64,000 nt of DNA. Source: Pseudomonas sp. sp1636 (lineage in GTDB: Bacteria; Pseudomonadota; Gammaproteobacteria; Pseudomonadales; Pseudomonadaceae). Shown here one piece after another: positions 52,154-57,036 of this stretch (within the stretch, counting starts at the first letter, position 1; each line of letters opens with the position of its first letter). The stretch lies in assembly GCF_030376615.1 (NCBI RefSeq), contig NZ_JARRAB010000003.1, positions 62,001 to 126,000 of the forward strand, in the 5' to 3' direction. Made by a program: the position numbers and the translations under genes. A model generated the notes under the pieces. It did not search any database. It was not told the origin of the DNA and was given only the letters and a program-made list of their open reading frames with translations.

Positions 52154-52432
52154 ATGACCGATACTGACGTTCAAGCCCCAAAAATCGAGTTCCCCTGCGA
52201 GCGCTACCCGGTCAAGGTGATCGGCGATGCTGGCGAAGGCTTCACCGAACTGGTGATCGCCGTGATCCAGCGCCACGCGCCGGATTTCGACGCGACCTCG
52301 TTGGTGGTGCGCGACAGCCGCAACGGCCGTTTCCTCTCGGTGCAGGCGCTGATCACCGCCACCGGGGTGGAGCAGTTGCAAGCGCTTAACCTCGATCTGC
52401 GCGCCACTGGTCGCGTGCACATGGTGTTGTGA
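52154..52432 (+). CDS. YbeD/DUF493-family protein
   Basis: A 92-aa protein with an ACT-like regulatory fold, core [23 protein letters not shown] and [16 protein letters not shown]. In Escherichia coli ybeD lies between dacA and lipB in the same order as here. Its function is not settled; a regulatory role in lipoylation has been suggested. One-base overlap with lipB (TGATG). Confidence 0.94.
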
Positions 52433-53076
52433 TGAGCCTGGGGGTTCGCGAGCTCGGCCTGGTCGACTACGAGCCGACCTGGCAGGCCATGCAGCGCTTC
52501 ACCAGCCGGCGCGATGCCGCTACGGCGGATGAAATCTGGCTGTTGCAGCATCCGCCGGTGTTTACCCAGGGGCAGGCGGGCAAACCCGAGCACCTGCTGT
52601 TACCCGGCGATATCCCGGTGGTGCAGGTCGACCGTGGCGGCCAGGTGACCTATCACGGCCCCGGCCAACTGGTGGCTTATCTGCTGCTGGATGTGCGTCG
52701 CTCGGGGATGGGCGTGCGCGAGCTGGTCAGCCGCATCGAGCGCAGCCTGATCGCCACCCTGGCCAGCTATGGCGTGACCGCCAATGCCAAGGCCGATGCG
52801 CCCGGGGTTTACGTGGATGGGGCGAAGATCGCTTCGCTCGGCTTGCGTATCCGCAATGGCCGCTGCTTTCATGGCCTGGCGTTGAATGTGGACATGGATC
52901 TGCAGCCGTTTCGCCGAATCAACCCCTGCGGCTATGCCGGTATGGCCATGACCCAGTTGGCCGACCTGGTCGACGAGCCGCTAGAACTCTCCGAGGTCAG
53001 TGCCCGGCTGCGGGAGCAGCTGGTCAAGCACCTCGACTACGCGCAGCAGAAGACCCTGACGGGCGCAATAGGCTGA
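52432..53076 (+). CDS. lipB: Octanoyltransferase LipB
   Basis: Moves octanoyl groups from acyl carrier protein to lipoyl domains. The 214-aa protein has [20 protein letters not shown], the catalytic lysine in [11 protein letters not shown] and the catalytic cysteine in INPCGYAGM. Start ATG 52432 is preferred over the GTG one codon upstream. lipA, the next enzyme, faces it from the opposite strand. Confidence 0.97.
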
Positions 53077-53111
53077 CCGGCCGCGGGGTAGGTAGGTGGG
53101 GATAAACCAGG

Positions 53112-53147
53112 CGCCTGCCCCTAGCAGTTAAAACCTAGGGGTAGGCG
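53112..53147. terminator. Shared hairpin between convergent lipB and lipA
   Basis: CGCCTGCCCCTAG (53112-53124) pairs with CTAGGGGTAGGCG (53135-53147), one G-T wobble, loop of 10. It is the only structure in the 84-bp gap and is placed to end both transcripts; T-runs are short, so strength is uncertain. Confidence 0.65.
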
Positions 53148-53160
53148 TTACACGGCCCTA

Positions 53161-54213
53161 TCACTTCAGATTGAGGGTCGGGATCAGGCTGCTGTCGACC
53201 GTCTGGCCCGGCACCGGTACTTGGGCGGCCAGGCCCAGGTTGTTTTTCTCGAACACCCGGTCGGCGCGGTAGCTGGAGCGTACCAGCGGGCCGGCGGCCA
53301 CTTCCATAAAGCCCTTCTCCAGGCCGATATCGCGCAAGCGATTGAACTCTTCCGGGCTGACCCAGCGCTTGACCGACAGGTGGTTGCGGGTCGGCTGCAG
53401 GTATTGCCCGAGGGCGAGAATGTCCACGCCGATGGCGCGTAGGTCATCCATGGTTTCCAGGACTTCTGCGTCGCTTTCGCCCAGGCCCAGCATCAGGCTG
53501 GTCTTGGTCAGGATGTCCGGGCGATGGCGCTTGGCGTGCTCCAGCACGCGCAGGGTCTTCTCGTAGCCGGCGCGGGGGTCGCGCACTTCATGGGTCAGGC
53601 GCTTGACCGTCTCGACGTTCTGCGCGAAGACCTCAAGACCCGAGTCCACCACGCGCTCGATGGCCAGCGGGTCGCCGTCGAAGTCCGGGGTCAGGGCCTC
53701 CACCACCACCTGCGGGGTGCGCTCCTTGATGGCGCGCACACAGGCGGCGTAGTGTGCGGCACCGCCGTCGTCCAGATCGTCGCGATCCACCGAGGTCAGC
53801 ACGATATAGCGCAGCGCCATCAGCTCCACCGACTTGGCGGTGTTCTGTGGCTCTTCCTGATCCAGCCAACCGTTGGGGTTGCCGGTGTCCACGGCGCAGA
53901 AGCGGCAAGCACGGGTGCATACCGAGCCCATCAGCATGATGGTGGCGGTGCCGTTGGACCAGCATTCGCCCATGTTCGGGCAGTGCGATTCCTCGCACAC
54001 GGTGCTCAGGCGGTGTTCGCCGACATTGCGCTTGACCGCTTCGAAGCGGCTGCCGCCGGGTGCCTTGACCCGCAGCCACTTGGGCTTGGGTTCGTACACC
54101 TGGGGTTCGCTTGAGGCACGGTGCTTCTGCCCGTCCTTGATCGCGGCGATGCCCTGAGTGGTGCGGAATTTTTCGCCGCTGGCAACGGTTTTGGGTTGGG
54201 AGGTATCGGACAT
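53161..54213 (-). CDS. lipA: Lipoyl synthase
   Basis: Radical SAM enzyme that inserts two sulfurs into octanoyl groups. The auxiliary-cluster cysteines are in [13 protein letters not shown], and the SAM-cluster CxxxCxxC is CTRACRFC. Length is 350 aa from ATG 54213 (MSDTSQ); a TTG two codons upstream (54219) is possible. It has its own transcription unit, opposite to lipB. Confidence 0.97.
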
Positions 54214-54353
54214 CGGCAATCTGGGCTCCGCTAGAGGCTCCGTGGACGAGGCGGCTTGTGGCCGCCGCGCAGTTTAGCACAGGAGCTGACCGTTCAGTCC
54301 GTCGAGCGCGCTGGGCTTTAATGTTGCAATTGACCTATGTCCCGGCCATGCCC

Positions 54354-55640
54354 TCAGAGCGGCGTACGCAGCCGCACCAGCAGTTCCTGGGTCGGGTAGC
54401 CGTCGGCGGGCCAACCCAGGTGTAACTGAAAGGCGCGCACGGCCTTGCGTGTGTTGGCGCCAATGATGCCATCGGCCGGCCCTGGCTCGAGGCCGTTCTG
54501 CGCGAGCAATTGCTGCAACTCGATGCGCTCGCTGCGGCCCAGTTGGCGCTCCTCGCGGGGCCAGGCGGCACGTATGCCAGCGCCGCCGCGCAGGCCGTCG
54601 GACAGCAGGCCGATAGCCAGGGCGTAAGCGGTCGAGTTGTTGTACTTGAGGATGCTGCGGAAATTGCTCAGCAGCAGGAAGGCGGGGCCGCGATGGCCGG
54701 CCGGCAGCAGCAGGGTCGCGCCGGTTGCGGCGGCTACGTCCTGGGCGGGCGGATTGAGCGGTGCGACGCCCAGGGCGACCCACTCGGCCAGGCTGCGGCG
54801 CAGTTCCGGGTCGGCCAGGCTGTAGTCGAACGTCTGCGGCAGGCGTACCTCGAAGCCCCAGGGCTGGCCTTGCTGCCAGCCCGAGGCTTGCAGGTAATGG
54901 GCTGCCGAAGCCAGGGCGTCAGCCGAGGAACCCCAGAGGTCGCGGCGGCCGTCGCCGTCGAAATCCACGGCATGTTCGTTGTAGGTGGTGGGCATGAACT
55001 GGGTCTGACCCATGGCGCCGGCCCAGGAGCCGAGCAGGCGCTCCGGGGTGATGTCGCCGTGCTGGAGAATCTGCAGCACGGCGAGCAGCTGGCTGCGCCA
55101 GAACACTTGGCGGCGGCCTTCGTAGGCCAGGGTGGCGAGCGAGCGGATCACGTTGTGATTGCCGATATTGCTGCCGAAGTTACTCTCCAGGCCCCACACC
55201 GCCACCAGGGTTTCGCGATCCACGCCGTAGCGTTGTTCGATGCGTGCGAGGGTGTTGCCGTGTTGCAACAGCAGGCTTTGCCCGCGGCTGATGCGCAGGG
55301 GCGAGACCGCGCCATCGAGATACTCCCACACCGGCCGGGTAAATTCCGGTTGGCTGCTGTCGGCGAGCAGTACGTCGGGGTTGGGGCTGACGCCGGCGAA
55401 GGCGCGATCGAACAGCTCGGGGTCGATACCGGCGGCAATCGCATCGCTGCGCAGCAGGGCGCGCCAGTCGGCGAAGCTGAGCTTTGCGCGGGCGGCTATG
55501 GGCTGTTTGATCGGGGTGCTGCTTGGGTGGTCGGCTACGGTTGCCAGCGATTGCGCAGGCGCTTCGGCACAGGCGGTCAAGAGCAGAAGGAGGCAAGCCG
55601 AGGTGATGTGGCTCAGGCTGCGAAGTAGCAGGTTGGGCAT
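54354..55640 (-). CDS. MltB-family lytic transglycosylase with peptidoglycan-binding domain
   Basis: A 428-aa GH103 enzyme. The signal peptide ends in a lipobox (LLTAC, Cys near 24), the catalytic glutamate region is [16 protein letters not shown], and [24 protein letters not shown] follows. The C-terminal 60 residues form a PG_binding_1 domain ([27 protein letters not shown]). It differs from MltB at 48.8 kb by this domain and the lipobox, so the two likely act at different sites. Confidence 0.94.
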
Positions 55641-55712
55641 GGCGGTCTCAAGGCGTTTTTGCAGGCCGTTACCTTAGCACGGTTGGGGCTCCAGGCGGGC
55701 CGCAGCGGGGTT

Positions 55713-55871
55713 TCAGGCGACCAGAAGGACTGAAGCCTCCCAGTTTTGCTGGGAGGCTTCGCGGCGGTAACTGCCTTTGCCTTTGCCGGGCTTTTCCTGA
55801 CGACAGCGGAACAGCGGCTGGGCGATCAGGGATTTGGCCTTGTTCGGCCGTGCTTTGCGGTTTTTGGCCAT
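55713..55871 (-). CDS. arfA: Alternative ribosome-rescue factor ArfA
   Basis: A 52-aa ORF, too short for most gene callers. The protein begins MAKNRKARPNKAKSLIAQPLF and carries the ArfA core PLFRCRQEKPGKGKGSYRRE with a later NWEAS. In E. coli ArfA recruits RF2 to stalled ribosomes when tmRNA fails. GAGG sits 7 nt before the ATG. The 3' coding end (codons 38-47) is a perfect hairpin, as in known arfA genes whose mRNA is cut or terminated inside the frame. Distance to holA is 118 bp, to the mltB-like gene 72 bp. Confidence 0.9.
   Translation of the reverse strand: MAKNRKARPNKAKSLIAQPLFRCRQEKPGKGKGSYRREASQQNWEASVLLVA
55732..55760 (-). promoter_or_regulatory. Perfect 12-bp hairpin inside arfA
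   Basis: On the - strand GAAGCCTCCCAG (55760-55749) pairs exactly with CTGGGAGGCTTC (55743-55732), loop CAAAA. It covers codons 38-47 and lies before the stop at 55715-55713. Only short T-runs follow, so RNase III cleavage is a better guess than intrinsic termination. Confidence 0.85.
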
Positions 55872-55989
55872 GCTCCATCCTCATTGGCGGCCCGCGACGC
55901 GCGGGTGCGTGAATGATGATCCGCTGGTTAAAAAATGTCCAGTCGGCAAGTTGGGCTTACCGACCCGCATTCGGGCTTATGCCGGGCGG

Positions 55990-57036
55990 TTACCAGGCAG
56001 GCTCGCTGGCCAGATCCAGGCGTTGCCCGCACAGGGCCAGGGTCAACAGGCGCAAGCCGCTCCAGGGGTCGCCCGCGGCTTGGCCCTTGATCTGCGCGTC
56101 GATGCGCTGAGCGTCCTGCAGCAGCGCGGCCCAGCGTGTGGCCGAAAGGCGTTGCAGGGCTTTGCTGACCAGGGGGCGGCGCTTGTCCCAGACCGGCGGG
56201 CGCGCCGAGCTGAAGGCCTTGTCCAGCGGCATGCCCTGGGCGTATTGCTGGGCGATGGTGGCGAGCAGGCGGATCTCGCGGGCCAGCGCCCAGAGAACCA
56301 CCGGCGGCTCGACCCCTTCGCCGCGCAGCCCTTCGAGGATGCGCAAGGCATGCGCGGCCTCGCCGTTGAGCGCGGCATCGATCAGGCCGAACACGTCGAA
56401 GCGCGCGCTGTCGGCCACCGCGGCGTGCACCGTGCTGGCCTCGATCTGCCCGCCTGCGGCGAGCAGCTTGAGCTTCTCGATTTCCTGGGCGGCGGCCAGC
56501 AGGTTGCCTTCCACCCGCACGGCGATCATTTCCACGGCTTCCTGGCTGGCACTCAGGCCGGCCTGGGCCAGGCGCTGGCGAATCCATTGCGGCAACTGCT
56601 GAGCATCCACCGGCCAGATCTGCACGAACTGACACTGCGGGCCGTCGATCAGGGCCTTGGCCCACTTGGTCTTCTGTGCGCTGCCGTCGAGTTTCGGCAG
56701 GCTGATCAGCAGCACGGTGTCTTCCGCTGGACGCGCCAGGTATTCGAGCAGGGCGGCCGCGCCCTTGTCGCCCGGCTTGCCGGAGGGCAGGCGCAGTTCC
56801 AGCAGGCGCTTGTCGGCGAACAGCGAGAGGCTGGCGCCGGCCTGCAGCAGGGTGCCCCAATCGAAACTGGCGTCGGCGTTGAATACCTGGCGTTCGCTGA
56901 ACGCCTGCTGGCGGGTGGCGGCACGAATCGCGTCGCAGGCCTCCTGGCACAGCAGCGGTTCGTCGCCACTGACCACATACACCGCCGCCAGGTTGCCCTG
57001 GAGGTGTTTGCCGAGTTGTGCGGGGTTGAGTTTCAT
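55990..57036 (-). CDS. holA: DNA polymerase III delta subunit
   Basis: Clamp-loader subunit that opens the beta sliding clamp. The 348-aa protein has N-terminal MKLNPAQLGKHLQGNLAAVYVVSGDEPLL and the conserved clamp-binding core WGTLLQAGASLSLFADKRLLELRLPSGKPG (in pieces), then an alpha-helical collar domain. It follows lptE by 42 bp. The leuS-lptE-holA order is common in gammaproteobacteria. Confidence 0.96.
   Translation of the reverse strand: MKLNPAQLGKHLQGNLAAVYVVSGDEPLLCQEACDAIRAATRQQAFSERQVFNADASFDWGTLLQAGASLSLFADKRLLELRLPSGKPGDKGAAALLEYLARPAEDTVLLISLPKLDGSAQKTKWAKALIDGPQCQFVQIWPVDAQQLPQWIRQRLAQAGLSASQEAVEMIAVRVEGNLLAAAQEIEKLKLLAAGGQIEASTVHAAVADSARFDVFGLIDAALNGEAAHALRILEGLRGEGVEPPVVLWALAREIRLLATIAQQYAQGMPLDKAFSSARPPVWDKRRPLVSKALQRLSATRWAALLQDAQRIDAQIKGQAAGDPWSGLRLLTLALCGQRLDLASEPAW

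Follow-up and report, generated by a model that had tools for sequence, protein, structure and literature searches.

Hairpin in the coding end of a Pseudomonas arfA gene and a probable second lock, an ssrA-like C-terminus encoded in the gene itself

The window analysed here is the whole 64,000-nt stretch of contig NZ_JARRAB010000003.1 from Pseudomonas sp. sp1636. Its minus strand carries a short frame between holA and a lytic transglycosylase gene, for which the following features were located in window coordinates.

55990–57036, minus strand: holA, the upstream neighbour of arfA (NCBIfam TIGR01128, 293.9 bits)
55941–55965, minus strand: terminator-like stem 3' of holA (pattern scan with 2 found and 1.1 expected by chance)
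55913–55941, minus strand: promoter-like site TGGACA-N17-CATCAT 5' of arfA (pattern scan, which is no proof of function)
55871 down to 55713, minus strand: arfA coding sequence, 52 codons plus stop, with the translated peptide MAKNRKARPNKAKSLIAQPLFRCRQEKPGKGKGSYRREASQQNWEASVLLVA
55791–55817, minus strand: PLFRCRQEK core, codons 19–27 (translation aligned to E. coli ArfA)
55767–55784, minus strand: KGKGSY core, codons 30–35 (translation and alignments including E. coli ArfA)
55732–55760, minus strand: hairpin over codons 38–47 (CDS nt 112–140), a perfect 12-bp stem with a 5-nt loop
55722–55731, minus strand: the 10 nt 3' of the stem, AGTCCTTCTG, at the position of the U-rich stretch of the relatives, which is weak in the window gene
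55716–55727, minus strand: C-terminal LLVA, codons 49–52, where relatives mostly have LAA; a candidate ssrA-like degron, in the full-length product only
54354–55640, minus strand: mltB-type lytic transglycosylase gene, the downstream neighbour of arfA (NCBIfam TIGR02283, 378.6 bits)

The earlier note had read the 52-codon frame as arfA. A profile search bore this out, in which the window peptide matched the Pfam ArfA family (PF03889) with an E-value of 1.8e-10 and 40.6 bits, above the cut-off of 25.5. Both ArfA core motifs (PLFRxRxEK-like and KGKGSY) were present in the alignment of the window protein to E. coli ArfA, and the same type of search over the window's genome returned 1 ArfA match, the arfA at 55713–55871. 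No match was obtained from NCBIfam with the window ArfA peptide or from Rfam over the stretch 55200–56200 at E up to 1. On the profile match and the core motifs, the gene is confirmed as arfA, coding for the ribosome-rescue backup factor ArfA. Its assignment to the non-stop, tmRNA-controlled kind, also proposed in the earlier note, agrees with how the family is described in the available text of three sources (PMC8012679, PMC3989581, PMC13159725). One tmRNA over the gathering score was found in the same genome (198.7 bits), and its tag, given by ARAGORN as ANDENYEGYALAA, ends ALAA.

Further out, arfA is flanked by lptE and leuS upstream and by lipA downstream, and a lipB-type gene on the plus strand (52429–54219) is convergent with lipA on the minus strand. 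The promoter-like site was also found in the relative L029, with related patterns in 34/189 family genes, and the tail of the terminator-like stem 3' of holA overlaps this site in the window (55913–55965).

We then looked at how widely arfA occurs, using draws of genomes that overlap one another and include the window's genome. ArfA profile matches were found in 144/149 genomes of the genus draw, 49/59 of the family draw, 5/76 of the order draw, and 3/229 and 7/369 of two class draws. Five genus genomes (G026, G043, G076, G080 and G146) had no ArfA profile match and gave weak matches only, with a best E of 0.12, when searched with the window protein; in the family, no profile match was found in any drawn genome of the genera g5 (5 drawn) and g7 (4 drawn). 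Losses of the backup rescue factor are possible in these five genomes and two genera. Full-length ArfA relatives in the family ranged from 47 to 71 codons, plus one of 119 codons (L040), whose frame runs 223 nt beyond the hairpin and ends CCA, perhaps after loss of a stop codon. The genome G200 had two arfA-like copies, L064 and L201, about 1.5 kb apart; the second lacks the Q of AQPLF, reads KTGKGSY, retains the hairpin and ends FLAA. Another gene, L319 of family f78, was left outside the tallies because its motif, KGKASY, was missed by our script; its frame ends FAC, so that it is an extra gene without Ala-Ala.

The 12-bp stem over codons 38–47, reported in the earlier note, was recovered by both an inverted-repeat search and folding. 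The two 12-nt arms (55732–55743 and 55749–55760) are 100% complementary with 5 nt between them, and the 46-nt hairpin region folded at −24.3 kcal/mol, which is 5.8 sd better than the shuffle mean of −10.5 (sd 2.4) and was equalled by 0/200 shuffles. In the relatives, the best hairpin of every gene lay within the reading frame, both in the genus (144/144) and in the family's other genera (45/45; 189/189 in total), and a hairpin score of at least 24 was reached by all 144 of the former and 40/45 of the latter; in the five family genes that scored lower, the hairpin still forms with mismatches or bulges. The spacing between the arm cores kept the frame in 183/185 measurable genes, the four others having no core.

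For covariation we used the 31 distinct hairpins that represent the 136 genes of the commonest length class. Pairing was found in 98.5% of cells, 5/13 pairs had changed on both sides, and the covariation score was reached by 0/500 shuffles, while slid versions of the alignment paired in at most 65.3%. The number of further pair types in this set was not unusual, with 152/500 shuffles as high. RNAalifold returned the same stem. The peptide over the stem varied with these paired changes, as in QSDNWEAS, RSDNREAF, PSYNGEAS and SLQDEKAS, where WEAS becomes REAF, GEAS or EKAS; conservation of NWEAS for the sake of the peptide was ruled out, since its residues change in step with the stem pairs. Because the stem is kept while the peptide is altered, it is the hairpin RNA that is under selection, with a frame kept through it and NWEAS as a peptide not required. 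The comparison with relatives suggested in the earlier note came out in favour of the hairpin, and the pattern that it had named as counting against its reading, a peptide kept without the hairpin, was the reverse of what we saw.

The hairpin and the sequence behind it also bear on how the mRNA could lose its stop codon. For E. coli arfA, RNase III cleavage at the hairpin plus transcription end (PMC3989581, PMC10107115) and processing by RNase III (PMC3989581, PMC10070815) are described in the available text of these papers. This precedent speaks for the rival explanation that survives best, in which RNase III cuts in the stem as in E. coli, giving a shorter ArfA whose last residue falls inside NWEAS, with the tail being no more than an unstable hydrophobic end of a general kind; we consider it unlikely for the reasons given here for the RNA and below for the protein. 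An RNase III substrate typically offers a stem of some 20 bp at least, with the cut site in it. The E. coli stem measured 23 bp with one mismatch, whereas the same script gave 10–16 bp in genus arfA (n = 144), and these stems and the 12-bp stem of the window gene fall short of that length. The hairpin of P. aeruginosa is likewise described as shorter than known RNase III substrates in the relevant part of a 2026 review, which gives its effect as without published data (PMC13159725).

Behind the stem, we defined a short-tail set of 167/189 family genes whose tail did not exceed 17 nt beyond the stem and whose hairpin score was at least 20; the 22 genes outside it comprised 18 with longer tails (8 ending in AA) and 4 with weak hairpins (2 ending in AA). 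Among the first 8 nt 3' of the stem, 5 or more were T in 119/144 genus genes and 19/45 other family genes. The window gene has 3/8, and its lack of a good U stretch is a second point for the RNase III account; a terminator pattern scan called neither the window arfA stem nor that of the relative L029. The third base of codon −4, counted from the end of the frame, was T in 167/167 short-tail genes, with F, L, V, I, C or H as the residue there, while in the window's genome T ends 15% of codons and TTT makes up 25% of Phe codons. This conserved T after the stem, which the RNase III account leaves unexplained, suggests an intragenic terminator with this T in its U stretch. Given short stems with U-rich sequence 3' of them, most genus genes more likely have a terminator, with the mRNA ending after WEAS, than an RNase III site, the case being weak in the window gene; with release 6–10 nt 3' of the stem, WEAS would stay in the peptide and the last residues would be lost. 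The earlier note had supposed an RNase III cut that removes part of NWEAS, which is less supported in view of the 10–16-bp stems and the U-rich stretch in most genus genes. In the family f36 (L068 and L224–L236), the predicted hairpin straddled the arfA stop codon in 14/15 genes as read by eye. With many long stems, this layout would fit RNase III better, and removal of the stop there would need a cut within the stem.

The codons behind the hairpin showed a second conserved feature, which is absent from the earlier note and which the window on its own could not have revealed. Ala-Ala was the frame end in 132/144 genus genes, 39/45 genes of other family genera, 15/15 genes of family f36 and 1/1 of f34, and at least one such end was found in 15/17 genera of the family with arfA (genome handles matched by hand). 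It was rare elsewhere (0/3 in f97, 4/19 in the order of G566, and 6/80 in named Enterobacteriaceae, a sample of the best 80 of 211 loci by likeness to E. coli ArfA), and on this distribution the Ala-Ala feature is lineage-specific. A general abundance of Ala-Ala ends in this genome was rejected as an explanation, with 5/325 long ORFs (1.5%) ending in this way; these ORFs had at least 150 codons and were taken longest first from 20 stretches plus the window, 464 kb. The 18/189 family genes not ending in AA comprised 5 RAC, 1 ARA, 1 LTS and 11 VA, TA, CA, YA or IA. The window gene, which ends LLVA, belongs to the VA type, and an LVA end was found in 3/144 genus genes, the others being L022 and L141. 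According to the available text of one source, LVA is a variant of the ssrA tag (PMC9382460), so that a candidate ssrA-like degron sequence, taken as Ala-Ala or such a variant with selection at the protein level, is found in the genus genes counted above and, as LVA, in the window gene.

We reconstructed codon changes by parsimony in the 167 short-tail genes, on a tree from their flanking DNA, which is short and noisy (tree length 39.1), with one reconstruction, and with codons 5' of about −9 unused since in-frame indels put them out of register. Synonymous and nonsynonymous changes numbered 31 and 0 at codon −1, 50 and 7 at −2, 4 and 23 at −3, 0 and 19 at −4, and 2 and 28 at −5, giving 81 and 7 for the last two codons and 6 and 70 for the three preceding ones. 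All four Ala codons are in use at both last places of the relatives' frames. The tree is rough and the contrast large, and on this comparison the terminal Ala-Ala of the relatives shows amino-acid-level selection. Tail length mattered as well, with Ala-Ala in 161/167 short tails vs 8/18 of those longer than 17 nt, where 5 of the 10 exceptions end RAC; the longer-tail rate is still far above the 1.5% background.

These data also weigh on the protein side of the E. coli-type account. In short tails, F, L, M or V predominate at residues −4 and −3, as a hydrophobic end would have it, but residues −5 to −3 change freely and Ala-Ala does not. Mean Kyte-Doolittle hydropathy over the last 12 residues marked the Enterobacteriaceae tails as hydrophobic (+1.14) and the genus tails as neutral (0.00), with 0.21 for the other genera of the family and −0.89 for f36. 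A hydrophobic tail as the whole story was rejected, since the f36 tails are hydrophilic and yet all of them end in AA, which such a tail cannot explain. In f36, most of the Ala codons fall inside the hairpin, and constraint on the RNA could play a part there.

That last observation is one of two in favour of a different reading, in which Ala-Ala is kept for a nucleotide-level reason, for instance an element in the RNA or DNA at the stop codon or where the next transcript begins; the other is that G is the usual third base of codon −3 in the genus (131/144), ahead of GCN GCN. We hold this reading to be improbable, for the third bases of both Ala codons are free, as the 81 synonymous changes indicate, eight of the longer tails end in AA behind other DNA (L011, L012, L014, L030, L045, L186, L189 and L198; the other 10/18 do not), and L069, from another family, also ends in Ala-Ala. 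Very improbable is a hairpin that serves mainly as a transcription-unit terminator or small-RNA source as in E. coli, its place inside arfA being incidental: E. coli arfA does give a 54-nt small RNA acting on mscL by the available account (PMC10070815), and yrdG is annotated, but mscL is not a neighbour of arfA in the window, and a plain terminator would need neither a position in frame (189/189) nor the in-frame spacing seen in nearly all measurable genes.

Our preferred reading is that arfA here is a tmRNA-controlled gene with two locks, the hairpin and a gene-encoded ssrA-like degron, which we judge likely from the sequence comparisons. The first lock, known for the family elsewhere, would operate through the coding-end hairpin, which would leave most arfA mRNA without its stop codon, in the genus probably by transcription termination just 3' of the stem; a ribosome would stall on such non-stop mRNA, and tmRNA would tag the peptide for destruction. 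The second lock, proposed from conservation, would act on readthrough transcripts translated to the stop codon, whose extra codons would give the product an Ala-Ala end, or Val-Ala in the window gene, resembling the way the tmRNA tag ends. According to the available text of PMC7652416, the main element that ClpXP recognises in the ssrA tag is the terminal Ala-Ala with its carboxylate, and ClpXP (or ClpAP) would be expected to take up full-length ArfA as well. Accumulation would then be left only to truncated ArfA that has no such ending and is set free when trans-translation breaks down. For the window's organism we infer the non-stop mRNA, termination in place of RNase III cleavage and a role of the tail as degron alike. 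An Ala-Ala end like that of the tmRNA tag may thus be a second safety lock, and the arfA of this family, and of one further family or more, probably encodes its own Ala-Ala of the tmRNA degron in codons that are left only if the hairpin fails to truncate the mRNA.

Compared with known systems, the window gene shares with E. coli arfA the ArfA core, the coding-end hairpin, a tmRNA in the genome and a tail confined to the full-length product. It differs in having 52 codons instead of 72, a 12-bp instead of a 23-bp stem, and WEAS on the 3' arm whereas E. coli has it on the 5' arm; the E. coli-type end is variable and hydrophobic, in contrast to the Ala-Ala type of the window gene's relatives. Full-length E. 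coli ArfA is described as unstable and as stabilised by two C-terminal aspartates, the instability being put down to the hydrophobic end (PMC3989581, in its available text). For P. aeruginosa ArfA (PA3990), compared by description, a hairpin and a hydrophobic C-terminus are predicted in the part of PMC13159725 that cites Schaub 2012, and neither a conserved Ala-Ala end nor a terminator is mentioned in that part.

The proposed route to a non-stop mRNA is shared, again by description, with arfA of Neisseria gonorrhoeae, whose hairpin, Schaub is said to have found in 2012, acts as an intrinsic terminator. In Bacillus subtilis brfA, a terminator inside the coding region likewise produces non-stop mRNA under tmRNA control (PMC6881298); as far as the available texts go, its product is described both as without sequence or structural homology to ArfA (PMC6881298) and as homologous to ArfA with 21.5% identity (PMC11633108). 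The ssrA tag, which in this genome also ends in Ala-Ala, is added in trans by tmRNA, whereas in arfA the gene itself is proposed to specify such a signal.

Earlier work has established non-stop arfA mRNA with control by tmRNA and has predicted a hairpin for P. aeruginosa, and on that level the finding is ordinary. We found no statement of a conserved Ala-Ala or ssrA-like ArfA end, or of an RNA-level U stretch after the arfA stem in the family, in the open-licence texts covered by our searches, which is not proof that they are unpublished. The ArfA tail is described in a review as poorly conserved, hydrophobic and unstable (PMC8012679, in its available part); in the family examined, no other part of that tail is kept as well at the amino-acid level as its final two residues. 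Their being kept implies that cells would produce full-length ArfA with enough frequency for selection to favour its removal, and the Ala-Ala end supplies a named protease signal as a candidate. Two layers would be split within the same few codons, with U bases for the RNA and Ala-Ala for the protein. If this is true, all routes to ArfA except failure of trans-translation would lead to a protein with the same destruction signal, and since Enterobacteriaceae use a variable hydrophobic tail, the same second lock would seem to have been built in two ways.
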